A stretch of DNA of 64,000 bases from Ktedonobacteraceae bacterium (lineage in GTDB: Bacteria; Chloroflexota; Ktedonobacteria; Ktedonobacterales; Ktedonobacteraceae), in contig DASRBN010000033.1 of the NCBI GenBank assembly GCA_035653615.1, positions 62,001 through 126,000 on the forward strand, given 5' to 3'. The notes under the pieces are model-generated. The model searched no databases and was not told where the DNA came from. It saw nothing but the letters and a program-made list of their open reading frames with translations. Shown here one piece after another: positions 7,320 to 21,404 of the stretch (positions are counted from its first letter, which is position 1; every line of letters begins with the position of its first letter). Position numbers and translations under genes: made by a program.

Positions 7320-8672
7320 TCATCGTCCAAAATAGCGCTGCGTAAACGTCGCGATGAAACTGATTTCGATGAACAGGCCCACAACCGCCTCTGTCGCTGC
7401 CAACGCTGTTACCGGACTACCCAGGCCAAAAGGACCCGGCAGGAAGCCACGACCATGGAACGAGGTAACGCTGAAAATTAATGACTCCGACGGTGAAAGA
7501 TGTCCTAGCAGGTAGTAGCATGTCGCGAAGGACAGGATCATCAGCAGGTAGATCAGCACGCTGCGGCCAGGCTTATAGCCAAAGCCGGCCAGTATATCCA
7601 AAAACCACGAAAAGATATAAGCCGCGAACTTACGTACCCGCAGCCAGGATCGCTGTAGCGCGAGACGCAGCCTGCCCGGCGCATCCTGCGGAAACGACTC
7701 TAACCATCCCCACTTAATTTGTCGCCAGAGCACTTTGCGTTCGATCACCTGCGCGCGATAGGCGTAACGCACTGCCACCTCGTTCATCCCCTGCGCGCGC
7801 ATAGTATTGGCGAGCTGGCGATTGGCTCGTACTGCCGCCGCATAGTCCTCCAACCGCTTGCGCTTCTCTCCCGCCGTTTTCGCCCCTCTCTCTAGCTCAC
7901 GTTGGCGTGCCCTATACTCATCGCCCAATCTTCTCATCCCTGTCCAATCGACGACCGAAAGATTCACATCTCTCCAATGAACATCGGCAAGTGTCGCAAA
8001 ACCAAACTTCCGCGAGCCGAGCATAATACTCTCAAGATTGGTAGCGCTATCGAAGAAAGCGTTACGGAGGTCCGCGCCCTCCAGGTGGGCATCAAACAGA
8101 TAAGCGCCCTCCAATACGGCACCGCGCAGGTTAGTCTGCTCCATGTGCGCGCCACGCAGGTAAGCATTTCTCAGATCAGCCCTGAAGAGACTCGTTTCTC
8201 GCATATGCGCGCGCCGCGCGGTTATCCTTGCCATATGCGCCCCTTCCAGTACCGCACCTTCCAGGTGGGCTTCGCTGAGATCGGCTCCCTCCAGGTGAAC
8301 GCCGGCAATATCGCGTTGCTCAAGCGTCGCCAGCTGCCACTCATCGCGCGTCAATCCTCCACGCGTGCAGGCCAGCGGCAGGTCCCGCAGGTCGATCCCA
8401 TGTACATCGGCCCCGCGCAAATCCAGTCCCAGGCGTTTCCGATCCTGCTCATCGTTCCAATCCACCGGCCCTCGTCCATCATCATGCTGTACCAGCAGCC
8501 ATTCAATATCTGCCCGCGTGAGCCTGACCCCCCTGAACGGATAAATATTTTGTCTGAAGTCCGGCGAGATTGCCAGATATTGGGCAAGCTCTTGCTGGCG
8601 GGCAAGGGGGATTTCAGGCTCGGTACGCCAGGATAGTACGTTATTCAGTTCGGGAACGGATGGCATGTTCAT
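7320..8672 (-). CDS. Pentapeptide-repeat protein with C-terminal two-helix ion-channel-like domain
   Basis: In this 450-residue protein, residues about 80-230 form a right-handed pentapeptide-repeat helix (A(D/N)LxxA type, e.g. LEGADLSEAHLEGAVLEGA). A charged helical stretch follows (about 255-345), then two hydrophobic helices (about 365-390 and 420-447) flanking SESLIFSVTSFHGRGF. The helix-loop-helix order and the end IEISFIATFTQRYF resemble two-TM potassium-channel pore modules. The TVGYG filter is absent (SFHGRG in its place), so potassium selectivity is not supported. It lies 16 bases downstream of a gene of unknown function, probably in one operon. Pentapeptide-repeat/channel fusions exist in many bacteria with no settled role. 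An ATG two codons in (MPSVPEL) is an alternative start. Confidence 0.8.
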   Translation of the reverse strand: MNMPSVPELNNVLSWRTEPEIPLARQQELAQYLAISPDFRQNIYPFRGVRLTRADIEWLLVQHDDGRGPVDWNDEQDRKRLGLDLRGADVHGIDLRDLPLACTRGGLTRDEWQLATLEQRDIAGVHLEGADLSEAHLEGAVLEGAHMARITARRAHMRETSLFRADLRNAYLRGAHMEQTNLRGAVLEGAYLFDAHLEGADLRNAFFDSATNLESIMLGSRKFGFATLADVHWRDVNLSVVDWTGMRRLGDEYRARQRELERGAKTAGEKRKRLEDYAAAVRANRQLANTMRAQGMNEVAVRYAYRAQVIERKVLWRQIKWGWLESFPQDAPGRLRLALQRSWLRVRKFAAYIFSWFLDILAGFGYKPGRSVLIYLLMILSFATCYYLLGHLSPSESLIFSVTSFHGRGFLPGPFGLGSPVTALAATEAVVGLFIEISFIATFTQRYFGR

Positions 8673-8688
8673 CGGATTCAGTCATCAC

Positions 8689-9591
8689 CTATTCGTTTAC
8701 GTGCTTCAATAAATCACGCAAAGCTGTTATTTGCTCATAGTCCATGCGTCCCGTATCATCGAGAAAACGGAGAAAACGCTTAAAGCTGGTCAATGTTGTT
8801 TTATCTCTTACTGTTTGCATATAGGTTTCCAGGTCTTCCATTGTCATGGTAAGCAGCCCGCGTGGTGGGTCCTGTGATAGAAGATAGTCGCGTGCAAAAG
8901 CATCGATATTCCCAACATGCTTTTCCACCATTGCATTGCTGAGCCCCCTACTTGCCAGGTCCTTGCGGAAGACGCTTACAATGCGTTTGTTACGTGCCAT
9001 AATCCCCTTTTGTATCTCCTGAACATTCTCGGGGGAAGTGGCTGCTAAAAGATTTGTGATGATTCCTTCGCGTTCCTGCGCATCCCGGTAGCTATCATTC
9101 AGGGTGCTGCGAATACCTGGACCAAAGTAGATGCTGAAAGGTGCCAGGAGACTATCATAAATGATGTGATCTTCAAGCGGCAGTAATACGGCCTCAATGT
9201 ATATAGGGAGGTACGGTCCAAGAATCTCTTCAATCGGACTATACAGGCCCAACACGCCATAGGCACGAGCAGGAGTTTCGGAGAGAAAGACGGTATATTT
9301 CTTGAGATAGCGCACCACAAAGAATTTACCAGAAACGCGATGCTGCCAGCTTTCGACGATTGCCAGGTCTTCATTAGGCAAACGAGCAGGATTCTCAGCA
9401 ATAAAATCTTTGCGTAGTGTATCATCTTTCCACAACACATCTCGAATTTTCATCACGTCCTGTGGGTCCAGCCTGGTAATCTTTGGATCATTCGGAAAGG
9501 GCGCAATGATGTGCCTCTGCTCATTGATGTAGTAGAGCAGCAGAAACCAGATATGGTAAAAGCGTTCGGTCTGATCGGGGGGTAGTTGCAT
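8689..9591 (-). CDS. Uncharacterised 300-residue protein, first gene of a two-gene unit
   Basis: I do not recognise a family. The protein is soluble, with no signal peptide or convincing transmembrane segment. The N-terminal half is rich in aromatic and hydrophobic residues (FYHIWFLLLYYINEQRHII near the start). The C-terminal part (about 190-300) is helical and charged: ...VFRKDLASRGLSNAMVEKHVGNIDAFARDYLL, then DLETYMQTVRDKTTLTSFKRFLRFL. That pattern recalls the SAM-like core-binding domain of tyrosine recombinases, but no catalytic domain is present, so this is weak. The ATG at 9591 follows CGGAG at good spacing. The next gene downstream encodes the pentapeptide-repeat membrane protein. Its promoter region borders the CRISPR island. 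Confidence 0.7.
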   Translation of the reverse strand: MQLPPDQTERFYHIWFLLLYYINEQRHIIAPFPNDPKITRLDPQDVMKIRDVLWKDDTLRKDFIAENPARLPNEDLAIVESWQHRVSGKFFVVRYLKKYTVFLSETPARAYGVLGLYSPIEEILGPYLPIYIEAVLLPLEDHIIYDSLLAPFSIYFGPGIRSTLNDSYRDAQEREGIITNLLAATSPENVQEIQKGIMARNKRIVSVFRKDLASRGLSNAMVEKHVGNIDAFARDYLLSQDPPRGLLTMTMEDLETYMQTVRDKTTLTSFKRFLRFLDDTGRMDYEQITALRDLLKHVNE

Positions 9592-9752
9592 GGTGATCGC
9601 TCCGTTTTAAATGAATTATAACATTCTCTACTGCCTCATGGTCTTATTCTAACAAACCGCCGCAACTCATTTGAGCAATCACCTTTAATAATTTATTGTC
9701 AAGTGAGCCTTATGATATCAAAAGTTCTACTAAAAATTTTCTGCTTATATTA

Positions 9753-9782
9753 TTGTATTTTTACTCAGCGATGTGTTATAAT
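9753..9782 (+). promoter_or_regulatory. Strong plus-strand promoter reading antisense into the csx3-fusion gene
   Basis: TTGTAT (9753-9758), an 18-base spacer and a perfect extended -10 (TGTTATAAT, -10 at 9777-9782) point rightwards into 9792 onwards. There the minus-strand csx3-ATPase gene ends and no plus-strand gene is convincing. An antisense transcript over the 3' end of that gene is possible. In an A/T-rich spacer, such matches can also arise by chance. Confidence 0.4.
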
Positions 9783-9791
9783 CGCATGAGA

Positions 9792-10958
9792 TTAGCCAAC
9801 AGGCATGGAGACGAAATCTCCAGGCGACAAATCGGGTGTGCGCGAGACCACTACGATGGCACCGTTCAAGGGTGGCTGGTGGCAGGCAATCCAGGCAAGG
9901 CCATAACCATAATAGAGACGCACCAGGGCTGTCAGCAACCAGTGTGGTATAGCACCGCTTAAAATGAGACCGCGCTCCGTTGAAACAGCTGGGAAGGAGA
10001 GATGTTCAGCCTCCGTATAATCGAGGTATTTTATCACGATATTTATCTTCAGCACGGTTGCGCCTTTATACTCATCGACTGTGATGTGCAACTCAGGTGA
10101 AAGTTCTGTGCCCGGGGACGCCAGTTGTAAGCGTGGGGCAGTTACCCAGCCAAGCCTTGAATCGAATTGGTAGAAGAGTTCTTCTCCTGGCTGTGTTGCC
10201 AGCGATCCATAGAGCCAGTTAGGGCCTCGTCCATAGACTGCGAGCGGCATATTGATCGGTAGTTCGGCAAGTAGGGGTGGTATCATTGCAGGTTCCCAGC
10301 GTCTTGTTTCAGGTGCCCATGCCTGTATGATGATATTCAGATTGACAACGAGTTCCACCGGTGCCGTATCCAGATGTGTTTTCTCTAGCTCATCTGGCAG
10401 ATAGGCGAAGAGCGAGGCCAGCCGGTCAACAAGCAGATCAAAAAGAGGACCGTGTGCGAGCTTTCCGCGATCCAGTCCAACCAGGGTTCCCTCGATCACA
10501 GGTTTATCCGCGGTGATGGCAGAATCACCGCTTAGTTCGGAATAAATAGAGGCTAAAGGTAGGAGACCGCTGACTTCAGTCAGGTGACGCCAGAATGTTG
10601 CAATCTCTGGATTATTTCTGTGTAGCAGCAATATGGAATGCGTACATCTGTGCAGGATGCCGATTTGATCTTCTGTTGGGAGACCGCCAATGTCGACCAG
10701 TAGTGGTAGGGGACGGTGTTCCAGGTCACGGCAAACGAGTTTTACAAAAGTATCGGTCCATTGTCCCTTGATGCGAATGAGGCGTACCGTATCCTGTTGA
10801 ATTTCATGGGACCAATCGCCCTCGCCATCGGGGCAGGCGCGCAGGACGTAGTGTTCGATGTGCCGTTCGCGCAGCGCCTGCGTCAGGCTATAGGTCAAAA
10901 CAGACTTACCGGCATGTGGAGGCCCGCCGATAAGCACGGCAGGCAAGAGATTGACCAT
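9792..10958 (-). CDS. csx3: P-loop ATPase fused to two tandem Csx3 (Crn3-type ring nuclease) domains
   Basis: With the start at 10958, which follows AGGAGG, this is a 388-residue protein. Residues about 5-200 form a P-loop NTPase with Walker A GGPPHAGKS (11-19) and a hydrophobic strand ending in LLVDIGG. Residues about 202-285 and 288-386 each resemble Csx3: the first has YGRGPNWLYGSLA (about 242-254) and FDSRLGW, the second LSGAIPHWLLTALV (about 333-346) and NGAIVVVSRTPDLSPGDF. Csx3/Crn3 enzymes degrade cyclic tetra-adenylate and so switch off type III CRISPR signalling; ATPase-fused forms are known. The two halves are diverged, so conserved residues are split between them and activity is uncertain. 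The gene is divergent from the CARF-HTH gene with only 52 bases between starts. Confidence 0.8.
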   Translation of the reverse strand: MVNLLPAVLIGGPPHAGKSVLTYSLTQALRERHIEHYVLRACPDGEGDWSHEIQQDTVRLIRIKGQWTDTFVKLVCRDLEHRPLPLLVDIGGLPTEDQIGILHRCTHSILLLHRNNPEIATFWRHLTEVSGLLPLASIYSELSGDSAITADKPVIEGTLVGLDRGKLAHGPLFDLLVDRLASLFAYLPDELEKTHLDTAPVELVVNLNIIIQAWAPETRRWEPAMIPPLLAELPINMPLAVYGRGPNWLYGSLATQPGEELFYQFDSRLGWVTAPRLQLASPGTELSPELHITVDEYKGATVLKINIVIKYLDYTEAEHLSFPAVSTERGLILSGAIPHWLLTALVRLYYGYGLAWIACHQPPLNGAIVVVSRTPDLSPGDFVSMPVG

Positions 10959-11010
10959 AGTTGGCCTCCTGAACTTATTTTTGCTATGTTGCCAGAGAGG
11001 AAAGGTTTCT

Positions 11011-11943
11011 ATGCCAGAATACATCCATACCTTACTCGCAACCCTTGGCGGACAGCCGCAAATCGTGACATTTACGCTCGATCTCCTGCTTCAGCGTGGT
11101 TTCCCTATCAGTGAGGTAATAGTCGTTCATCCCGAAGCGTCGGACGCGCGCCTGCGACACTCAGTAGCATGCCTCAACGCCGAGTTCGTTGGTGATTACT
11201 ACAGTTATTACCTGGTTCACGGGCAACCTCTCCGTTGTCGTCTTCGTTCATACGTGCTGGAACTGGATGAAGCTCCGCTGCAAGATATTGTAGACGACCT
11301 CAGCGCAAAGGGCACGCTCGACACTGTTCATCGTCTTGTCCGCGACCTCAAGCTGCAGCACCGGCGCATTCACCTTTCACTCACCGGTGGTCGTCGTCTG
11401 ATGTCACTGATGGCGATTTCAGCAGCGCACCTCAACTTCGACCACTTCGATCACATCTGGCACATCTACACACCCTCAGCCCTCAGGCCCCTGGTCAACG
11501 AAGGCAAAGTCATGCATATTCCCACCGAGGCCGGTGTAAGCCTGATAGAAGCCCCTTTCGTCCCCTGGGGAGCCTACTTCCCAGGCCTATCGCAAACAGT
11601 CGATACAGCCCAGGATATGCGCCACTACCAGACTGCTCGCATGGATGCGGAGGAACGGGCGAGATGTACCAGGGTTATCGAGCAGGCAACACAGCGTGAG
11701 CAAGAAGTTTTGCAAGCTTTTGCTCTCGGCCTGACCCAGCAGGAAGTAGCAAAAGAACTTCACATCTCCATTAAGACCGTAGATGCTCACAAGGCCAATC
11801 TGCTTGATTATTGCCGTGAGGCCTGGAACATCGATCCAGACGAAAGACTAGGCTATCATTTCCTCTACAAGAAATTTGCGCCATACTTCGATAGTACACA
11901 GTATACCTCTAGGGCAAGGCAAACGCATCAGAGAAATCTCTAA
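11011..11943 (+). CDS. CARF-domain protein (NE0113 type) with C-terminal LuxR-type HTH
   Basis: In this 310-residue protein, residues 1 to about 190 are a CARF (CRISPR-associated Rossmann fold) domain of the Cas_NE0113 type. It has LLATLGGQPQIVTFTLDLLL near the start and the ligand-loop motif HLSLTGGRRLMSLMAI at about 121-136. Residues about 225-275 carry a helix-turn-helix of LuxR/GerE style: TQREQEVLQAFALGLTQQEV, then AKELHISIKTVDAHKANLL. The arrangement predicts a transcription factor whose DNA binding responds to cyclic oligoadenylate. It precedes cmr1 by 94 bases and is divergent from the csx3 fusion, a good place to control both. The start at 11011 follows AGAGAGGAAAGG; an upstream in-frame ATG at 10951 is less likely because it overlaps the other gene's start. 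Confidence 0.85.
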   Translation: MPEYIHTLLATLGGQPQIVTFTLDLLLQRGFPISEVIVVHPEASDARLRHSVACLNAEFVGDYYSYYLVHGQPLRCRLRSYVLELDEAPLQDIVDDLSAKGTLDTVHRLVRDLKLQHRRIHLSLTGGRRLMSLMAISAAHLNFDHFDHIWHIYTPSALRPLVNEGKVMHIPTEAGVSLIEAPFVPWGAYFPGLSQTVDTAQDMRHYQTARMDAEERARCTRVIEQATQREQEVLQAFALGLTQQEVAKELHISIKTVDAHKANLLDYCREAWNIDPDERLGYHFLYKKFAPYFDSTQYTSRARQTHQRNL

Positions 11944-11965
11944 CTTATTTTAATAGATATCCCGG

Positions 11966-11994
11966 TTGTGTTTTAGACGAAGGAATGGTATTCT
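11966..11994 (+). promoter_or_regulatory. Candidate promoter of the cmr operon
   Basis: TTGTGT (11966-11971) and TATTCT (11989-11994) are spaced by 17 bases, about 45 bases before the cmr1 start, in the only sizeable gap between the CARF-HTH gene and cmr1. Downstream genes overlap or are closely spaced to 21404, consistent with one long transcript. Confidence 0.5.
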
Positions 11995-12037
11995 CTTCAG
12001 GAAAAAAGATGATTGTGCGAGAGAAAGGAATGTAGGG

Positions 12038-13078
12038 ATGCAGGAAGTTGAATTTACCCTACGTACTCTAACCCCTTTATTTCTGGCAGGGGCAGATCAG
12101 ACAAAAGCAGAACTGCGCGCTCCCACGTTTCGAGGTCTTATGCGCTACTGGGAACGCGCGCTGGTAGGAGGAATGGCTGGAACGTCCTCTAAAGGCCTTG
12201 AAAAAGTGATGGAAGTTGAAACCGAGGTTTTTGGCGCGACGGATAAAGGCTCTGCTGTAGCTGTCAAAGTTTCGGAAGCCTCCAATTCTCCAAAGGAATT
12301 TACCGAGCAAATAAGTGTGAGAGTAGGTGGGAGATGGCAGGCGACAGGAAAAGGCTATTTCTTGTGGTCAATGGCGAGAAGCGGAAGGGAAGATAGAGGA
12401 AATTTTAAACCTGCACGCTGGTTCTTTCCTCCTGGAACAGGATTTAAGGTCACGCTTTCAACACGAGGACAGGATACTGTAAAACTCAAGCAGGCAGTTG
12501 CGGCATTCTGGTTACTGACGCAATTAGGTGCGGTGGGTTCGCGTTCGCGGCGTTGTGCCGGAAGTCTGGCCGTTCAGTCTGTTGAAGGTAATGGTGCCAA
12601 AGCTGTTCTCGAAGATTTTCCTTTTTCTATGCCGGCAAATGCTCAGACGTTAAAGCAGCAGATTGAGCAGGGAATCAAAAATGCTCGTTCACTCTATAAC
12701 CTTGCGCAGCAACCAATTCGCGATGCACAATTTGATGTACTTGCTCGGGGAGCCTGTCGTATCTGGATACTCCAGGATGAACAACCCTGGCCAAGTGCCG
12801 AAGTCGCGATGCAGAAGTTAGGGGAGAGGCTCCAGGACTATCGCCATGATATACCTATCCAGCAACGCCGGATTTTTGGATTACCTTTGCCTCCAATTAT
12901 ATTCAACAAGCGCAGAGCCTCACCTTTATTGCTGAGAGTGGTAGAACTACAGGGAAATAAGTATGTTGGGATAGCAGTGCTTTTTAAAACAGCAGGGAAT
13001 GATGTATTCATGCAAGACTACAAACTAATCGAGAACTGGGCCAATGGATTTCGTGGAAAGCTGGAGGTGATGCTATGA
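12038..13078 (+). CDS. cmr1: Type III-B CRISPR RAMP protein Cmr1
   Basis: This 346-residue RAMP (Cas7-like) protein has the typical Cmr1 opening: MQEVEFTLRTLTPLFLAGAD, then ELRAPTFRGLMRYWERAL. RNA-binding glycine-rich and basic stretches follow (LGAVGSRSRRCAGSL). Cmr1 caps the 3' end of the crRNA-bound Cmr filament and contributes to target binding. The ATG at 12038 is preceded by GAAAGGAATGTAGGG. An upstream in-frame start at 11966 would add 24 atypical residues and would overlap the promoter. The gene overlaps cas10 by 4 bases (ATGA), the first of several couplings in the operon. Confidence 0.92.
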   Translation: MQEVEFTLRTLTPLFLAGADQTKAELRAPTFRGLMRYWERALVGGMAGTSSKGLEKVMEVETEVFGATDKGSAVAVKVSEASNSPKEFTEQISVRVGGRWQATGKGYFLWSMARSGREDRGNFKPARWFFPPGTGFKVTLSTRGQDTVKLKQAVAAFWLLTQLGAVGSRSRRCAGSLAVQSVEGNGAKAVLEDFPFSMPANAQTLKQQIEQGIKNARSLYNLAQQPIRDAQFDVLARGACRIWILQDEQPWPSAEVAMQKLGERLQDYRHDIPIQQRRIFGLPLPPIIFNKRRASPLLLRVVELQGNKYVGIAVLFKTAGNDVFMQDYKLIENWANGFRGKLEVML

Positions 13079-15087
13079 GCGAGTATATGCTGATGTTTTC
13101 CCTGGGTCCTGTACAGCCATTTATTGCTCAGGCCCGTAAGACGCGGGATTTGTGGTTGGGAAGCTATCTATTGGCGAAACTGATGGAAGCGGCAGTAAAA
13201 GATCTGAAAGGAGAGCTTGTTTATCCTACACGTAGTACCGTGGATGACAGACGAGGTATCCCCGATATACCTAATAAGTTCGTAGCTATTTTCCCATCAG
13301 AAGAGGCAGCTTATGAGGAAATAGGACGCTGTGTGACTCGAATTGAAAAGCGTTGGGAAAAGATATGCAAAGAGGTGTGGCAAGAGATTGTTGCAGAGTA
13401 TACCACCAGGGAAACAGAAAGAATTTGGAATCGGCAAACGGATGCACAAAACCTGTTCGAGACATACTGGGTAATTGTGCCAGATAGTTCTAGAGAATAT
13501 AAGCAATGGCTAAGTTACACCCAGGAGGTATTAGATGCGCGCAAGCGCCTGCGCAATTTCGCATCACAAAGTAAACGAGGGCAAGAAGGCGAATTAAGAG
13601 AGGAAGGCGAACCGGGGGAGAAGAGTACCGTCTCTGGAGAGCGTGAAGCGTTACATGGAATAAGAACTGATCGCCAGGGAATTCAGGACTTCTGGGTTAA
13701 GCTGACAAGTAAGCTTTCTGCACACGATATTAGCAAGGATGGGTCTGAGCGTCTTGATGCTATTGATACTGTCAAGCGTTTCGCCACCAAATCACAGGAA
13801 ATTCCGTTTAAGACTTTTCCCTCGACAAGCTATATTGCGGTAGCTTCATTTATGGAGGTCTTGTTGCTGGCCCCTATAGATCAGGATGTACTTGGCAATT
13901 GGCAAAAGGCAACAAATGAACAATTAGAATTGCCGGAGGGTGCAAAAAGAGCGGTTCCTTATCTACATAGGATGGTAATGAATGACCGTCAGCTAGCTGA
14001 GCGCGATTGGATTTTGCAGCGCGATGGTGATTTGTACTTTCCAGAAATGTTTGTGCCACGGCAATTAATGCAGAATTATGGTATTGCTGATGTATCAGAA
14101 GCTACAAGCATAGCTCGAAGTGCCAAAGATGCTTTGGCTCATCTACTGTCCGCAACTGATGAATTGCACATTACTCGTCCTACTCCTTACTATGCCTTAA
14201 TCCAGATGGATGGTGATAGAATGGGTTCTTTACTTGGAGGTGTCGGTGGTAAAGAAGAACACTGGGCTATTAGCGAAGCACTTTCCACCTTTTCTCGTGA
14301 GCGCACTCCAGAGTTGGTAGAGGATAGTTACCCAGGGAAACTTGTCTATGCGGGCGGCGATGATGTTGTGGCTCTAGCACCGCTCGCAAGAGATATCCGA
14401 GCAGGTAATCAGCCTCTGACAGTTCTTGATCTGGTAGATGCATTACGAAAGATATACCACGATACAGTTCAAGGAGCGGTATTAGACGAGACACGCAAAG
14501 CGGAAGTTACTGCCAGTATCGGTGTCGCTATTGCACATCACTACACTTCTCTTTCCTATGTGCGGCGGACAGCAAAGGCTTCCGAAGATCTTGCAAAGAA
14601 GGCCTATGGACGCAATGCTTTAGTTGTCACTATTTTGAGGCGTTCAGGTGAGCAAACACGAGTAGGTTGCCATTGGTTTTATAAGGTTTCGAGGGATGGC
14701 AGTGAGCAAATGTTAGAACCAGTGTCACTCTTTCTAGAGTTTTATGAATTTTTCAAGAAAGAGATTCTTTCGCCTAAGTGTGTCTATATCTTGCTTGAAG
14801 AAGCTCCTGTGCTGGTTGGATTAGATAGGAATGCCCAGATTAGCGAGATCAAGCGTGTATTACACCGGCAGCGTAAGGAAGAGGTTGAGAGTAAATTTGT
14901 TGAGCGCGATCTAGCCGGGAGATTAGTCGATTTGGCAGAGGCTATGGACAATGATGACAGACGACCCAGAAAAGCAGATTCATCATTGGCTATCGAATTA
15001 CATTCGGAAGAGCGCCGGCATGGATTGGTCGAGGTGCTAGGTTGGTTGCTAGTGATGGCTTTTCTAGCACGAAAGGAGCCGGAATGA
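13075..15087 (+). CDS. cmr2: Type III-B large subunit Cas10/Cmr2 with intact GGDD palm, no HD domain
   Basis: This 670-residue Cas10 opens with the Cmr2 signature FSLGPVQPFIAQARKTRDLWLGSYLL. A first palm-like region has YALIQMDGDRMG (about residues 380-392). The second palm has LVYAGGDDVVAL, with GGDD at 427-430, the active site that makes cyclic oligoadenylates from ATP when target RNA is bound. No N-terminal HD nuclease motif is seen and the protein starts directly with the Cmr2 N-domain, so single-stranded DNA cleavage is not expected. The immune output should therefore rest on signalling and on Cmr4 RNA cleavage. It is coupled by 4-base overlaps to cmr1 upstream and cmr3 downstream. Confidence 0.95.
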   Translation: MSEYMLMFSLGPVQPFIAQARKTRDLWLGSYLLAKLMEAAVKDLKGELVYPTRSTVDDRRGIPDIPNKFVAIFPSEEAAYEEIGRCVTRIEKRWEKICKEVWQEIVAEYTTRETERIWNRQTDAQNLFETYWVIVPDSSREYKQWLSYTQEVLDARKRLRNFASQSKRGQEGELREEGEPGEKSTVSGEREALHGIRTDRQGIQDFWVKLTSKLSAHDISKDGSERLDAIDTVKRFATKSQEIPFKTFPSTSYIAVASFMEVLLLAPIDQDVLGNWQKATNEQLELPEGAKRAVPYLHRMVMNDRQLAERDWILQRDGDLYFPEMFVPRQLMQNYGIADVSEATSIARSAKDALAHLLSATDELHITRPTPYYALIQMDGDRMGSLLGGVGGKEEHWAISEALSTFSRERTPELVEDSYPGKLVYAGGDDVVALAPLARDIRAGNQPLTVLDLVDALRKIYHDTVQGAVLDETRKAEVTASIGVAIAHHYTSLSYVRRTAKASEDLAKKAYGRNALVVTILRRSGEQTRVGCHWFYKVSRDGSEQMLEPVSLFLEFYEFFKKEILSPKCVYILLEEAPVLVGLDRNAQISEIKRVLHRQRKEEVESKFVERDLAGRLVDLAEAMDNDDRRPRKADSSLAIELHSEERRHGLVEVLGWLLVMAFLARKEPE

Positions 15088-16286
15088 TGCGCCTTTTTAT
15101 TGAACCTACAGAACCGTTATTGTTTCGTACTGGACGTCCATTTAATGCAGGAGAAAATAACTTCGCGGAAACTATTTTTCCTCCTACTCCTGAAACAATG
15201 CAGGGTGCTGTACGGGCTGCAATAGCTACGCATTGGGATAGAACGAAAACAATCGCACAGGTATTTGAGGATCCAGAGCTTGTTGAGCTAATTGGAAATC
15301 GTAAAGGTTATGGGCGCTTTCGTATTACTAGTCTGGCATTAGGGCGGCGCAAAAATAGTGATAGTGAGGATGGGCCGGTCGAGCGTCTTTTCCCATCCCC
15401 TCTGTATCTACAGAAGGATAGGAAAAAGGTCATTCGTTTCTATCCTAAACCAATAACAGAAGTACGTAGTGACATACCAGAAGACATGTGGTATTTGTGG
15501 CCTGATGAAGAGGCTGAAGATAAACTGGAAAATGCGGGATGGCTGACAGAACGTGGATTAGTGAGGGTACTACGGGATAAGGAAAAGCCTTTCGATGAGG
15601 AGATAGTCAGCAATCGCGAGATATTCGAGTATGAATCACGTCTTGGTATTGGCATGAACAATGAAACCAAAACGACCAGAGAGGGATTGCTATACCAGGT
15701 GCGAATGGTACGAATGAAACATGATCTTGATTTCACCAATCGCGATAATGACTTTGTCTATGGGTTTGTTGTCGATATCAGCCTTGCTGGAACAGAAGAA
15801 AGCGCCTGTTTGACTGATTCTCCAGAGACATTATTGAGTGATGAGCAGGTGCAGAAACAACTGCGTTTACCAGATAGTGGATGGATTACACTCGGTGGGG
15901 AAAGGCGAGCAGCCTATTTTAGGGTACTCAAATCGGTAACGCTATCGGCGTCAGAAAATGTAGAGCAGCTCAAGGCTGGTAGGGCCGTTTACCTCTCAAC
16001 GCCGGCAGCTCTCGATGATGGCTGGAAACCTCTCAATTGGCAACCAAAGAAGTGGAGCAAACCACTTCCTAAACCAATTGCAGTAACGATTGATCGTTAT
16101 CAACCAATAGGAGGTTGGCTACTTGCTCCCGGCACTGCCGGAGGTGAGAACAAGATTATGCGCCGTTGTGTTCCGGCTGGTAGTGTTTACTTTTTTAACG
16201 AGCCGGTAGCAATAGAACGTCCCTTTACGGATTACGGTTGGCAAATTGGCTATGGAATTGCATATGCAGGAGAATGGAAATCATGA
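15084..16286 (+). CDS. cmr3: Type III-B CRISPR RAMP protein Cmr3
   Basis: This 400-residue Cas5-like RAMP begins MMRLFIEPTEPLLFRTGRPF and continues AGENNFAETIFPPTPETMQG, the standard Cmr3 opening. The C-terminus carries PIGGWLLAPGTAGGENKIMRRCVPAGSVYFF, which includes a glycine-rich RNA-contacting loop. Cmr3 binds the 5' handle of the crRNA together with Cas10 and forms the foot of the complex. The start at 15084 overlaps the cas10 stop (ATGATG) and follows AAAGGAGCCGGA. The gene in turn overlaps the cmr4 start by 4 bases. Confidence 0.92.
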   Translation: MMRLFIEPTEPLLFRTGRPFNAGENNFAETIFPPTPETMQGAVRAAIATHWDRTKTIAQVFEDPELVELIGNRKGYGRFRITSLALGRRKNSDSEDGPVERLFPSPLYLQKDRKKVIRFYPKPITEVRSDIPEDMWYLWPDEEAEDKLENAGWLTERGLVRVLRDKEKPFDEEIVSNREIFEYESRLGIGMNNETKTTREGLLYQVRMVRMKHDLDFTNRDNDFVYGFVVDISLAGTEESACLTDSPETLLSDEQVQKQLRLPDSGWITLGGERRAAYFRVLKSVTLSASENVEQLKAGRAVYLSTPAALDDGWKPLNWQPKKWSKPLPKPIAVTIDRYQPIGGWLLAPGTAGGENKIMRRCVPAGSVYFFNEPVAIERPFTDYGWQIGYGIAYAGEWKS

Positions 16287-17203
16287 TCACAGAGACCACC
16301 ATGCTTTATCTTTACGTCGAAACGCCGCTTCATGCAGGAGTAGGCTCTGGTTTGAGCAGTATTGACCTGCCGATTCAGCGAGAGCGAACAACTCAGTATC
16401 CCATGATTCAGGGAAGTGGCATCAAAGGAAAATTGCGTGCAACAGCAGAAGATGTTATTAAGGATCGGACTATAATTGATATCTTATTCGGGCCTGGTAC
16501 TCCTGGTGCAGGAGCAGAAGATTACGCCGGTGCGCTTATTGCAGGTGATGCGCGTATTCTCCTTTTCCCTGTGCGTTCGCTCAATGGTGTTTTTGCCTAT
16601 ACTACTTCCTGCGATATATTGAGCCGCTTTAAGCGTGACATAGAGAGGGGTCATGCCAGCAGCGTACTACCATGGAATGTCCCTGAACAAGTTGCAGTAG
16701 GCAATGCGCTGATGACGACTACAAGTGAAGTCCATGCTAATAATACCATTGTGCTGGAAGAATTCAGCTTTGAGGCTCGCCCAGATGGACAAGTTGACAC
16801 AATTGCGAATTGGCTTGCAACTAATGCCATCCCTGATCTGGGAGCAGGTGATTACTGGCCCAACAAGATTAGGAACTCTTTAGTCATCTTATCCAATGAT
16901 GATTTTCGCGATTTCGCGCTTTATGCGACAGAGGTTATCACCCGCGTTCGTCTAGATCGACAGACAAAAACGGTTCAGCGCGGCGCTCTCTGGACTGAAG
17001 AGCATCTACCCACCGATACACTGCTCTATGTGCCGATTTATGCAACAGATGGACGCCAAAATGGGAAGAATGGCTCGAAAGTGACTGCTGCCCAGGTTCT
17101 GGAAAGGGCCAGATCACTTGACACTGGTAGGGGTAGCTATCTCCAACTTGGCGGCGATGAAACTGTTGGGCGTGGTCTGGTACGCATGCGCTGGGGAAGT
17201 TAG
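16283..17203 (+). CDS. cmr4: Type III-B CRISPR backbone RNase Cmr4
   Basis: This 306-residue Cas7-like RAMP forms the helical backbone and cuts target RNA every six nucleotides. The opening LYLYVETPLHAGVGSGLSSI leads into DLPIQRERTTQYP, and the Asp at position 28 matches the catalytic Asp of characterised Cmr4. The loop MIQGSGIKGKLRA follows. The C-terminus ends in a glycine-rich motif (YLQLGGDETVGRGLVRMRW). All visible features are intact, so target RNA cleavage is predicted. The start at 16283 overlaps the cmr3 stop; the in-frame extension from 16238 lies entirely within cmr3 and is not supported. Confidence 0.94.
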   Translation: MITETTMLYLYVETPLHAGVGSGLSSIDLPIQRERTTQYPMIQGSGIKGKLRATAEDVIKDRTIIDILFGPGTPGAGAEDYAGALIAGDARILLFPVRSLNGVFAYTTSCDILSRFKRDIERGHASSVLPWNVPEQVAVGNALMTTTSEVHANNTIVLEEFSFEARPDGQVDTIANWLATNAIPDLGAGDYWPNKIRNSLVILSNDDFRDFALYATEVITRVRLDRQTKTVQRGALWTEEHLPTDTLLYVPIYATDGRQNGKNGSKVTAAQVLERARSLDTGRGSYLQLGGDETVGRGLVRMRWGS

Positions 17204-17244
17204 TCAGGTAGCGCAGATCACTATTGTTTAAAAGGGAGAAGATA

Positions 17245-17781
17245 ATGACTGAGAAGACTCAACGTCAGAATATTGAGCAGCAGCGCGGGAAGCAGGCTTG
17301 GGATGATATTGATGAAATTAAAAAGCTTGCAGAGAAAACTCAAAGGCTTCTAGGAGAAAATCAGGATGAAGAGATAAGGAAAAAATTAGAGAGACTGCTT
17401 AGGGAATATGAAGGACTGCAAAAAGAGTATCGGTCATTAGCTCGAGGACTGAATGCAATGATCCAGATCAATGGATTAGGACAAAGTCTTGGCTTTTTAA
17501 AGGCTAAAGGCAAAGTTAAGGTGGAAGATGGAGTACAAAAAAGAAATGCTCATTTTTACTTGCTAGGTCATCTGACACATTGGATGCATGAGCATTTTGA
17601 TACATCTATTATAGATGCTACGAGTACCGAAAATGATGGGCTTCTTCGATGGGTAACTAATAGAGCAAGTAATACAGATTACCGACGTGCAACCACGGAA
17701 TGTCTTGCTTTCGGTAGTTGGCTGCGTCGTTTTGCCGAGGCAGAATTGAAGGAACCAGACGCAGGAACGGAGCAGATATGA
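17245..17781 (+). CDS. cmr5: Type III-B small subunit Cmr5, with extended charged insert
   Basis: This 178-residue all-helical Cas11-type small subunit stacks along the Cmr filament. The core motifs are present: SLARGLNAMIQINGLGQSLGFLKAKG and, near the end, TDYRRATTECLAFGSWLRRF. Between the first helix and the core there is a Glu/Lys-rich coiled-coil-like stretch (about residues 25-65) that makes the protein longer than the common 120-150 residues. AAGGGAG precedes the ATG at 17245. The coding sequence is visibly richer in A/T than the nuo or housekeeping genes. The stop overlaps the cmr6 start. Confidence 0.9.
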   Translation: MTEKTQRQNIEQQRGKQAWDDIDEIKKLAEKTQRLLGENQDEEIRKKLERLLREYEGLQKEYRSLARGLNAMIQINGLGQSLGFLKAKGKVKVEDGVQKRNAHFYLLGHLTHWMHEHFDTSIIDATSTENDGLLRWVTNRASNTDYRRATTECLAFGSWLRRFAEAELKEPDAGTEQI

Positions 17782-18950
17782 ATAACCAGGAGAGCAGGCA
17801 ATACTATCTTCCTCAAAGTATAGCAAGATTGCTTACAGTAGATCAACTGAGCAAGTGTAAAAATCTAGGCTTGATACTGGATAAGTATCCCCCAGAATCC
17901 GCTATTCAAAGGAGTGAAGGAAAAAGTGGCTGGCTTAAAGAGCTTGCTGCAACTAATCATGTTGATGTAAGGCTTGTCGAGAGCGTTTACAGGCGCTGGT
18001 TAAACATGATAACAGCGAGAGGAGCAACACATTTCACCGCTATTACTGATTGGCGTATGGTAGTTGGTCTGGGTGGTGAATCTGTGCTGGAAACCGATTT
18101 AACATTGCATCACCTGTATGGTATTCCTTACATTCCTGCCAGCGCCTTGAAAGGTTTGACGCGCGGCTATGTGACCGGAGAGGTATATCCTAGCAGCGAT
18201 ATCGAACATGATAATGAGATTGTCAGACGTATTTTTGGTTCACAGAAACAGGCCGGAACTGTGATCTTTTTTGATGCCATGCCTGTAGGTTCTAAGATAG
18301 ATTTCGTACTCGATATCATGAATTCGCATTATCCTCATTATTATGGGGAGAAGAAACTGCCAACCAATGACCAGAATCCCAACCCTGTGACTTTCTTGAC
18401 GGTAGCTGGTACAACTTTTGTATTTGCTCTGGCTCCACGTCGTCTCAATAATGAGGTCGATTCGAAGGACGTAGAGTTAGCAAAAGGCTGGTTGCAAGTA
18501 GCTCTAGAAAAGTATGGCATTGGAGGAAAGACGAGTGCAGGATATGGCTTCTTCAGGATGGTCAACGATGGAGTGCTGCCAGAAAGCCTTACCGAATCAT
18601 TGCAAACCGTATCAACACCGACATCTACACCTTCATCAACAACACCAAAGCCTGCTATAACTGAGCGTATACGCCCGAATATTCCTAAATTCAGAGAGGG
18701 GCAGGAAATCACAGGGTCTGTCATTGCTCTTACCGATGAATTACGACGAAGAGTTCCTGCTGATGCAAAGGCCATCTTGAGATATCAATCGTTTGCGACG
18801 AGGGACGTGCTGATAGTTGTGAGCGCGGAGGAAGCACAGAATTGGAAACCTGGCGAGACGCGCATTTGTGTGTTTATGCGAGAAGAAGAGCGGGATGGAT
18901 GTACATTGCTGATATGCCAACCAAGGGCAAGTAAGAAAAAGAAGGCATGA
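17778..18950 (+). CDS. cmr6: Type III-B CRISPR RAMP protein Cmr6 with additional C-terminal domain
   Basis: In this 390-residue protein the first ~265 residues are the Cas7-like Cmr6 RAMP: HHLYGIPYIPASALKGLTRG, then TVIFFDAMPVG, VTFLTVAGTTFVFAL and the glycine loop YGIGGKTSAGYGFF. Cmr6 sits beside Cmr1 at the head of the complex. After a Ser/Thr/Pro-rich linker (about 272-295) comes an extra ~95-residue domain: IRPNIPKFREGQEITGSVIA, then ETRICVFMREEERDGCTLLI, ending in KKKKA. That region has the look of a small beta-barrel/OB-type nucleic-acid-binding fold, but I cannot assign it. Most Cmr6 proteins end after the RAMP. The start at 17778 overlaps the cmr5 stop. Confidence 0.9.
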   Translation: MNNQESRQYYLPQSIARLLTVDQLSKCKNLGLILDKYPPESAIQRSEGKSGWLKELAATNHVDVRLVESVYRRWLNMITARGATHFTAITDWRMVVGLGGESVLETDLTLHHLYGIPYIPASALKGLTRGYVTGEVYPSSDIEHDNEIVRRIFGSQKQAGTVIFFDAMPVGSKIDFVLDIMNSHYPHYYGEKKLPTNDQNPNPVTFLTVAGTTFVFALAPRRLNNEVDSKDVELAKGWLQVALEKYGIGGKTSAGYGFFRMVNDGVLPESLTESLQTVSTPTSTPSSTTPKPAITERIRPNIPKFREGQEITGSVIALTDELRRRVPADAKAILRYQSFATRDVLIVVSAEEAQNWKPGETRICVFMREEERDGCTLLICQPRASKKKKA

Positions 18951-19015: not shown

Positions 19016-20080
19016 ATGACAACAATTCTAACAGCAACAGGTATTTCCCTGTATCTCAATACGAGGAGAAAGTATGGTATTGAGACGCCAACCGAGGATC
19101 AAATGCGGCAATACCTACGAACTGAGCCAGGAGCAGCATCTGCTGAAGCTAATTCAATCCTCCAAATATCTCAGTCTGATGATCAACTTGTTTTTCTCCA
19201 TACCGAAACGATAGAAGGGAAGAGGTGTACCAACTTATTACGGGAATTCTTCAGTAGTAGAGGTTACAAACATATCCGGCCGGTTGGACTTCAATTTCAA
19301 GAGGATGAAAAGCACATAGAAACCCACGGGTTGCGTAACTTTGTTAACACGTTCATTGATGAGATTGAAAAAGCCAAGAGAAATAATCAAGACGTTGTTA
19401 TAAATGCAACTCCTGGTTTCAAATTAGAAAGCGGTTATAGCACTCTGATAGGCATGCTTTATCAGGTTCCGGTTAAATATATACATGAGAAATTCAAACG
19501 TGTTGTTACCTTTAATCCTATTGCCCTTGATTGGGATACCAGCCTTTTCCTTAGATATAGTTGGTTTTTTGAATGGATAGATGCAGAGGCTCGCTCCCAA
19601 ACGGAAGTAGAGGAGCGTCTCAAGGCTATCCCTGAAAAAGAAAAAATACAATCAATGTTGACATTACCTGATGAGCATGGAGATGTATTTTTATCTCCAA
19701 TGGGGAATGCCCTTCAAAGACGATTCAAGGAACAAACTGAGGAAGCAAAAGAGGCTCCATTGCCATCTGAAGTGCAGATAGAAAATCCTGATGAGAAGAT
19801 TACCTCTTCACTCAAGAATGTGGCGCATCACTATCCCAAGAACACGCTCGCTGCTTGCAATAAAATAGCTCAGTTACCTTATGTACGAACAATAATCGGT
19901 GGAAACTTCGAAAATACAACACGTTCTGCTGTTAAAAGGGTTACTGAAGATGGAACAATTTTACTACTCTGGGCAGATAATGATAAAGCTGCAAACCTGA
20001 CAATACAAACAACAGCCCAGGGGCTTCCTCAAACGCAGAAAGTCGCAGAAAAAATAAAGGAGTTGTTGAAGATCAAATAA
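19016..20080 (+). CDS. CARF effector (APE2256/Csm6-like) with putative RelE-like C-terminal domain
   Basis: In this 354-residue protein, residues 1 to about 180 form a CARF domain with the ligand motif VVINATPGFKLESGYSTLIG (about 127-146) and PVKYIHEKF. A winged-helix-like linker follows (about 200-238, DVFLSPMGNALQRRF). The C-terminal ~90 residues (about 265-354) read YPKNTLAACNKIAQLPYVRT, then GTILLLWADNDKAANLTIQT, TAQGLPQTQKVAEKI. CARF-wHTH-RelE proteins such as Cami1 are cA4-activated mRNA interferases that block translation. I assign the tail to that group by pattern memory only. The gene follows cmr6 by 65 bases with its own AAGGAG, and its stop overlaps the csx15 start (TAATG). Confidence 0.75.
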   Translation: MTTILTATGISLYLNTRRKYGIETPTEDQMRQYLRTEPGAASAEANSILQISQSDDQLVFLHTETIEGKRCTNLLREFFSSRGYKHIRPVGLQFQEDEKHIETHGLRNFVNTFIDEIEKAKRNNQDVVINATPGFKLESGYSTLIGMLYQVPVKYIHEKFKRVVTFNPIALDWDTSLFLRYSWFFEWIDAEARSQTEVEERLKAIPEKEKIQSMLTLPDEHGDVFLSPMGNALQRRFKEQTEEAKEAPLPSEVQIENPDEKITSSLKNVAHHYPKNTLAACNKIAQLPYVRTIIGGNFENTTRSAVKRVTEDGTILLLWADNDKAANLTIQTTAQGLPQTQKVAEKIKELLKIK

Positions 20081-20460
20081 TGCTTGTACTCAACTTCACC
20101 CACCCCCTCACCCCCAACCAGCAAGCGCAAATCGAATCCCTGGCTAAAACCTTCATTGCAGGTATTCGCACTATCCCTGTACAAATCAACCAGGCAGAAC
20201 CTCTCGAACCTCAAATCACCGCAATAATAAATTCAATAGATTTGTCATCTGAAGAGTGGCAAACTCTTCCTCTTCTCATCAATCCGCCAGGCTATGCTCC
20301 CGCCGCGTTTGTTCTACTCGCTGAACTTCACGGGCGCATCGGTCATTTTCCCTCGCTGATTCGCCTGCGCCCAATAGCTGGCAGCATTCCGACAACCTAT
20401 GAAGTAGCTGAATTGGTTAATTTACAGGCAATCAGGGAGCAAGCTCGCCAAAGAAGATAG
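20080..20460 (+). CDS. csx15: CRISPR-associated protein Csx15
   Basis: This 126-residue protein matches the compact Csx15 family: MLVLNFTHPLTPNQQAQIES at the start, LPLLINPPGYAPAAFVLLAE in the middle, then LHGRIGHFPSLIRLRPI and a basic end. The fold is a small Rossmann-like domain reminiscent of half a CARF. The family occurs with type III CRISPR loci and has been proposed as a candidate ring nuclease that degrades cyclic oligoadenylate; I recall this from the literature and treat it as unproven here. Translation is coupled to the upstream CARF gene by TAATG. Its GC content is higher than that of the preceding gene. Confidence 0.8.
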   Translation: MLVLNFTHPLTPNQQAQIESLAKTFIAGIRTIPVQINQAEPLEPQITAIINSIDLSSEEWQTLPLLINPPGYAPAAFVLLAELHGRIGHFPSLIRLRPIAGSIPTTYEVAELVNLQAIREQARQRR

Positions 20461-20513
20461 CCTGTATCGATAGAGATAGCTATATATGTAGCATTTAGGA
20501 AAGGAGAATGGTC

Positions 20514-21404
20514 ATGACTTTAATGATAGCACTTGTTGGTGAGCAGCCTATGCCCAATCTCCTTCCGGTACGGCACTCCCATCCCTCTGATGTATTGCTC
20601 GTTTATACGAAAAGAACAAAAGGCATATATGATCGTCTGGCTGCAACACTTCAGAAAGAGGCAAATGTTTATGAACTAGAAACAGAGCCTTATAGGATAG
20701 GTGTGATAGTAGATGCTCTGAAAGCAAAACTTGAGTCTCCAGAGCTTGCAGGAAAATCGAATACATTTAATCTTACAGGTGGCACGAAGGCAATGGCTTT
20801 TGCTGCTTATCAAGTTGCGCAACAACAAAAGGCACCGATGTTCTATTTGCAAAGTGAGGGGAAGCATAACCGCATTTATCACTATATCTGGGAAGATCGA
20901 GGTTTAAAGCTGGTAGATGACGAGTTGGTGCCAGCGTGTGTGAAGCTGAATGACCTGTTTAACCTACACTTCGGGCCAGGAGAGTGGCAAGAATGCAGCT
21001 CAAATCGTGGTGATGATGGTGGACCATTTGAGGTAGCATTAGCCGAGGCTCTACGACTAAATGAATATGAAGTCATGACGGGCGTCAGGGCTATGGATGG
21101 GCAGATTGATATTGACGTTGCAATGAGATTTGAAAACCGATTTGGTATCATTGAAGCAAAGGCAGGTAATAAGGGAAAGAAGCTCGATGGCATCAAACAA
21201 CTGAGTAATGCCGTTCGCCATATCGGAACTTATACTCAATCTTTCTTTGCGATCACTGTTCAACATACTTCAACGCATGAAGCCATTATGCTTGCCTCCC
21301 GTATTAAGGTGGTTTCACTAACGAACTATGTGCCTGGATCAGAAACGCTCACTTTAGATGATGCAAAGAAATTGGTTGGTGCTGTTGATGAGGTTCTTAA
21401 GTAA
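20514..21404 (+). CDS. can2: CARF-PD-(D/E)XK nuclease of the Card1/Can2 type
   Basis: In this 296-residue protein, residues 1 to about 150 are a CARF domain opening IALVGEQPMPNLLPVRHSHP and carrying the ligand loop FNLTGGTKAMAFAAYQ (about 85-100). Residues about 165-290 are a PD-(D/E)XK nuclease: Glu173 in FEVALAEAL, Asp201 in QIDIDVAM and the EAK motif (Glu214, Lys216) in GIIEAKAGNKGKK. Card1/Can2 enzymes are activated by cyclic tetra-adenylate and cut single-stranded DNA and RNA or nick supercoiled DNA, arresting the infected cell. Catalytic residues are intact. The start at 20514 fits the AAAGGAG spacing better than the ATG at 20508. It is the last gene of the island. Confidence 0.9.
   Translation: MTLMIALVGEQPMPNLLPVRHSHPSDVLLVYTKRTKGIYDRLAATLQKEANVYELETEPYRIGVIVDALKAKLESPELAGKSNTFNLTGGTKAMAFAAYQVAQQQKAPMFYLQSEGKHNRIYHYIWEDRGLKLVDDELVPACVKLNDLFNLHFGPGEWQECSSNRGDDGGPFEVALAEALRLNEYEVMTGVRAMDGQIDIDVAMRFENRFGIIEAKAGNKGKKLDGIKQLSNAVRHIGTYTQSFFAITVQHTSTHEAIMLASRIKVVSLTNYVPGSETLTLDDAKKLVGAVDEVLK

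Follow-up and report, generated by a model that had tools for sequence, protein, structure and literature searches.

Does a protein that joins a CARF domain to a LuxR-type helix-turn-helix (HTH) control the type III-B CRISPR locus in which it is encoded, and if so, from which DNA site and in which direction? This question is raised by a 64-kb stretch of a Ktedonobacteraceae contig (64,000 nucleotides; hereafter the window), in which the gene, here termed CARF-LuxR, lies between a divergent csx3 fusion and the genes cmr1 to cmr6, with a start-to-start gap of 52 bp towards the former, just as the preliminary description of this DNA had placed it.

The CARF-LuxR gene, its protein and its relatives

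The neighbourhood comprises the following features.

9792–10958, minus strand: csx3-AAA, an AAA domain fused to a Csx3/Crn3 ring nuclease (PF09620, E = 3e-20; PADLOC AAA-Csx3 C3a67, 390 bits)
10959–11010, unstranded: divergent gap of 52 bp, with an extended −10 TGCTATGTT (10982–10990) towards CARF-LuxR
11011–11943, plus strand: CARF-LuxR regulator gene (310 aa; PF09623 and PF00196 matches; AlphaFold model with a mean pLDDT of 92)
11053–11616, plus strand: CARF domain (residues 15–202), with a TGGRR loop at residues 125–129; aligned with Crn1/Sso2081
11689–11805, plus strand: LuxR/GerE HTH (residues 227–265), with a predicted recognition helix at 254–271 whose residues associate with operator bases
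12038–13078, plus strand: cmr1 (TIGR01894), first gene of the putatively controlled cas operon
13075–18950, plus strand: cmr2/cas10, cmr3, cmr4, cmr5 and cmr6; the cyclase GGDD motif is visible in the Cas10 translation
19016–21404, plus strand: CARF-DUF2103, csx15 and a Can2/Card1-like CARF nuclease (profile matches)

As a ring nuclease, Csx3 (Crn3) cleaves cA4 (PMC12409355). Downstream of csx3-AAA, likewise on the minus strand, the window encodes a 300-aa protein that matched neither Pfam nor PADLOC (8692–9591) and a pentapeptide-repeat protein (7320–8672); related loci keep neither of them. A CRISPR array was not found in the window, where no 23-mer is present three or more times. The same genome carries a second CARF-LuxR/csx3-AAA locus (G000 C44, L040).

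The CARF-LuxR frame is open from a TTG at 10951 to its stop at 11943. The likely start is the ATG at 11011, with the ribosome site GAGAGGAAAGG upstream, and position 10959, previously given as the first base of the gene, is instead the first base of the intergenic gap. Both proposed domains were recovered by Pfam: the NE0113-type CARF domain with its TGGRR loop as PF09623 (Cas_NE0113; E = 5.5e-36, 124.8 bits against a curated cut-off of 23), and the HTH as PF00196 (GerE; E = 8e-11, 41.9 bits against 23.5), so that the profile search suggested earlier as a check of the HTH was passed. In the AlphaFold model, CARF strands and helices are followed by a 35-residue helix (191–225) and by HTH helices at 228–238, 243–250, 254–271 and 282–295, which together form the tetrahelical HTH fold. 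Sequence profiles match the HTH part to the NarL, VraR and EL222 domains and the CARF part to Sso2081, and a structure search returned Crn1/Sso2081 with cA4 as the closest solved fold, along with Csa3-cA4 and Cad1.

In an alignment with Sso2081, the binding residue Arg105 is kept as R128, Lys106 is replaced by R129, and the Crn1-type motifs are changed at the aligned positions (motif I from GTS to GGQ, motif II from GRK to GRR). A role as ring nuclease was rejected, since the catalytic motifs are not kept. The replacement of GTS by GGQ and of Lys106 by arginine, with Arg105 retained, points to binding without efficient cleavage, and CARF-LuxR probably acts as a sensor and not as a ring nuclease. 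Its CARF fold and kept arginine, together with the GGDD motif of Cas10, make a cyclic oligoadenylate (cOA) its likely ligand.

To describe the family, we searched 400 Chloroflexota genomes and found PF09623 proteins in 60, most of them with a LuxR-type C-terminus; among 35 relatives sampled across the phylum, Pfam detected a LuxR-type HTH in 33. The combination, which had been regarded as unusual, is thus the rule in this Chloroflexota family and also occurs in Rhodothermus. The PADLOC CARF3 model PDLC01855 spans residues 6–294 (369 bits), a full-length match which indicates that a profile of the family already existed, under the bare label CARF. The best 80 genome-contig loci are labelled Chloroflexota with one exception: L138, a Chloroflexota-like CARF-LuxR on a 3-kb contig of a metagenome-assembled genome labelled Gammaproteobacteria, which most likely reflects misbinning.

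In nearly all related loci csx3-AAA is divergent to CARF-LuxR, often across gaps of only 25–50 bp. At L145 a 524-aa divergent frame stands in place of csx3-AAA and overlaps the start of the operator-bearing CARF-LuxR. A side branch without csx3 comprises L045, L046, L047, L052, L060, L061 and the Rhodothermus plasmids. On two Rhodothermus marinus plasmids (L182, 8974–9879; L183, 3974–4879), relatives from outside Chloroflexota lie directly before csm1, and neither csx3 nor an operator was found at these loci. Their public annotation as 'CRISPR-associated ring nuclease' is probably misleading for the LuxR-bearing branch. The viral contigs and phages searched contained no relatives.

A predicted 43-bp operator at the 3′ end of the gene

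Inspection of the intergenic stretches between CARF-LuxR and the next cas gene revealed a double inverted repeat that recurs from locus to locus. When 92 de-duplicated loci were analysed by de novo expectation-maximisation, with three dinucleotide-shuffled sets as nulls, it emerged as a 20-mer motif with a score of 310, compared to 130–134 in the shuffles. The complete 43-mer consensus, aCATCaGAgAAA.cTCTGAaAaataTCaGaggTtTcTCtGATG, reads CATCNGA-N6-TCNGA-N6-TCNGA-N6-TCNGATG, in which TCNGA occurs four times at a period of 11 bp. Two other approaches were set aside: a count of perfect-arm inverted repeats gave merely mild enrichment, and the motif search was used instead; a run of the 20-mer motif on the coding sequence upstream of the stop codon (score 628) is invalid as a null because that sequence is conserved protein-coding sequence. 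The window contains one predicted copy.

11925–11967, unstranded: predicted operator GCATCAGAGAAATCTCTAACTTATTTTAATAGATATCCCGGTT, overlapping the CARF-LuxR stop codon

With a model trained without any Ktedonobacteria, position 11925 ranked first on both strands of the 64 kb (19.9 bits, compared to 13.6 for the best unrelated site). The distal half of this copy (11926–11941) is strong and the proximal half degenerate; a strict-pattern search of the own genome at 3 mismatches gave no match and missed the window operator. About one third of the loci, some Ktedonobacteria among them, have no recognisable operator.

In whole genomes the motif is almost restricted to the CARF-LuxR neighbourhood. At no more than 2 mismatches, the 400 Chloroflexota genomes contain 10 operator places, 7 of them beside CARF-LuxR, and at 3 mismatches those of the 30 genomes of operator-bearing loci that match at all have about one site each. 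Scanning 1.62 Mb of locus sequence at 21 bits or more returned 45 sites, of which 40 lie at the CARF-LuxR 3′ end and 5 before cas genes. One further site (G412:C4:227448) was judged to be a chance match because it has no cas genes and no spaced −10 box. Across the family, columns of the HTH recognition helix associate with operator bases more than CARF columns do (p = 0.002, with shared ancestry only partly separated).

At a Dictyobacter locus (L038), the palindrome after the CARF-LuxR stop codon is longer and of another sequence, CATGGGAGAATTCACC...GGTGAATTCTCCCATG, and a −10 box lies at the same 20-bp distance; a switch of operator specificity is one possible explanation.

Outward-facing promoter signals and the divergent gap

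Promoter signals were found on both sides of the operator.

11966–11971, plus strand: weak −35 TTGTGT of the cas-operon promoter (TTGTGT-17-TATTCT)
11989–11994, plus strand: −10 box TATTCT of the cas-operon promoter, with TGG in front, 21 bp after the operator (phylum-wide spacing peak 20–21 bp)
11900–11905, minus strand: antisense −10 box TATACT inside the CARF-LuxR gene, towards csx3-AAA, 19 bp from the operator's other end (phylum-wide peak 19 bp)

The promoter proposed earlier at 11966–11994 is not outstanding by consensus alone, and a consensus promoter scan of 9500–12300 returned no sites above chance; its −10 box is, however, backed by comparative spacing. Although the operator model includes no promoter sequence, 24 of 40 strong sites have a sense −10 box at 20 bp (about 0.7 expected per offset), and 28 of 40 have an antisense −10 box at 19 bp on the opposite strand. 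Among the 49 operators of at least 14 bits, the sense box is present at 40, the antisense box at 43 and both at 35. Because operators well away from the stop codon have the same antisense box, neither the stop codon nor the coding sequence accounts for it. All five operators before cas genes, one of which belongs to the second locus of this genome, have a sense −10 box at 19–21 bp; in the two of them that have no CARF-LuxR behind them, the antisense box is lacking. The second locus has two operators, one between the end of CARF-LuxR and csx15, the other, without an antisense −10 box, before the Card1/cas10 operon.

The strong dyad symmetry just after or over the stop codon could also be that of an RNA hairpin, a terminator or attenuator ending the CARF-LuxR message. 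We consider this very improbable, given that no T-run follows the repeats, that the spacing to the −10 boxes is exact on both strands and that second copies stand before other cas operons at identical spacing. From the sequence comparisons, CARF-LuxR very probably binds the predicted operator and controls the cas operon.

As for the direction of control, the operator ends occupy the −35 position, where the match to TTGACA is poor (on average 3.0 of 6 positions on the sense and 2.6 on the antisense side, compared to 2.4 and 2.3 in shuffles). An operator end at −35 is the placement of LuxR-type class II activators. The same coverage of both −35 positions might suit a repressor that occupies the operator in the absence of cOA and is released by it, whereupon both promoters would fire together, and at some loci (L131, L143) TTGAC-like −35 boxes do merge with the operator end. 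At most loci, however, the −35 is as poor as activator-dependent promoters predict, and the operator lies upstream of the −10 box and start site at an exact spacing, not over them. We therefore regard repression as improbable and activation as the likely mode.

The preliminary description had focused mainly on the divergent gap, from which CARF-LuxR would control itself and csx3. This gap is very short and conserved across loci and holds a promoter-like sequence towards CARF-LuxR. Nevertheless, the operator model found no operator-like site in the window's gap, and many gaps measure 25–35 bp, too small for two promoters and an operator. Binding in the gap thus appears quite unlikely, and the best candidate site is the 43-bp operator at 11925–11967. 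Across loci, extended −10 boxes in the gaps are enriched towards CARF-LuxR (22, compared to 9.8 expected, s.d. 2.4) and not significantly towards csx3 (14, compared to 9.5, s.d. 2.5). The lack of a clear csx3-directed promoter fits, but does not prove, a model in which transcription of csx3 starts mainly at the antisense promoter, about 0.95 kb upstream. The earlier proposal that the protein controls its own defence operon and ring nuclease most likely stands, with the amendment that a shared divergent promoter is a less likely means of controlling csx3 than the antisense promoter near the 3′ end of CARF-LuxR.

Whether the antisense transcript reads through into csx3 is close to an even question. 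The operator might instead control the cas operon only, with the antisense RNA limiting the regulator and a csx3 promoter located elsewhere: the transcript need not extend to csx3, and two loci without an adjoining csx3 (L104 and L145) keep both the operator and the antisense −10 box. Against this stand the position of csx3-AAA, which in almost all operator-bearing loci lies divergently no more than a few tens of bases away, the lack of a clearly enriched csx3-directed promoter in the gap, and the finding that the csx3-lacking L045, L046, L047 and L052 as well as the tandem L139 have no operator. We consider a cas-only operator unlikely, though less so than repression.

A predicted cOA-gated circuit and its relatives

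The domains, the operator, its specificity and the bidirectional promoter geometry were established computationally. Building upon them, we think it reasonably probable that CARF-LuxR is a cOA-sensing one-component regulator of this type III-B locus that activates the cas operon together with an antisense transcript into csx3. Once its CARF dimer had bound the cyclic oligoadenylate that Cas10 makes (probably cA4), the LuxR-type HTH would bind the 43-bp operator at its gene's 3′ end. Two dimers would occupy this site, each covering the −35 position of a promoter that faces outwards and has its −10 box 19–21 bp away. One promoter would drive the cas operon; the other would produce an antisense transcript that crosses CARF-LuxR and continues into csx3-AAA, a gene that shows little separate promoter signal. 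With both under its control, cOA would amplify the defence operon and simultaneously damp it, through antisense RNA against the regulator and through the ring nuclease that destroys the signal.

Such an arrangement would resemble the excludon of Listeria, in which a long antisense transcript over one gene doubles as the message of its divergent neighbour. At the sequence level, a conserved antisense −10 box and a divergent csx3-AAA gene order are found across related loci. Tentatively, and with slightly less than even confidence, we propose a cOA-gated excludon conserved across Chloroflexota, in which the symmetric operator would switch on the type III operon while the long antisense transcript silences the sensor and expresses the ring nuclease. 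The Listeria case differs in that the present one is predicted and would be driven by the very regulator that it silences.

CARF-HTH fusions are known, as had been pointed out, from Csa3, which likewise fuses a CARF sensor to an HTH, controls CRISPR genes and has a palindrome (CAPP) upstream of cas promoters. Csa3 is, however, a winged-HTH protein of archaeal type I-A loci, whereas CARF-LuxR has a tetrahelical LuxR HTH of the GerE type and an NE0113 rather than a Csa3_N CARF domain; nor does the literature surveyed report a two-way promoter for Csa3, as is predicted here. With LuxR/NarL regulators the protein shares the GerE HTH and, as predicted, a dyad site at −35 in class II placement, but it would sense by CARF instead of an autoinducer or receiver domain, and its double operator would serve two outward promoters. 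Crn1/Sso2081, the nearest solved CARF by sequence and fold, differs in the catalytic GTS and Lys106 described above. CARF-LuxR itself belongs to the CARF family of NE0113/PF09623 (TIGR03642 Csx14-like, PADLOC CARF3), for whose members Makarova 2014 (PMC4012209) had predicted a role in transcription regulation; the literature surveyed on this family mentions neither the LuxR-type HTH nor an operator. The open-access literature, which did not include the 2020 CARF classification (Makarova 2020), yielded no account of a CARF protein that combines a LuxR-type HTH with an operator, and none of a ring nuclease under antisense control of this kind.

For Csa3a, the best-studied CARF-HTH factor, DNA binding, including that of its palindrome, was non-specific and independent of cA4 (PMC8699464), and a 2024 census left regulators for later study (PMC11229360). 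The precisely defined operator and two promoters in Chloroflexota type III loci make site-specific transcription control by cOA directly testable by footprinting. CARF-LuxR represents a bacterial family present in many Chloroflexota type III loci, and the proposed circuit would explain why csx3-AAA is kept divergent to it and points to a signal-coupled off-switch at the level of transcription. If this prediction is correct, the excludon would be a built-in amplify-and-reset circuit for type III defence.
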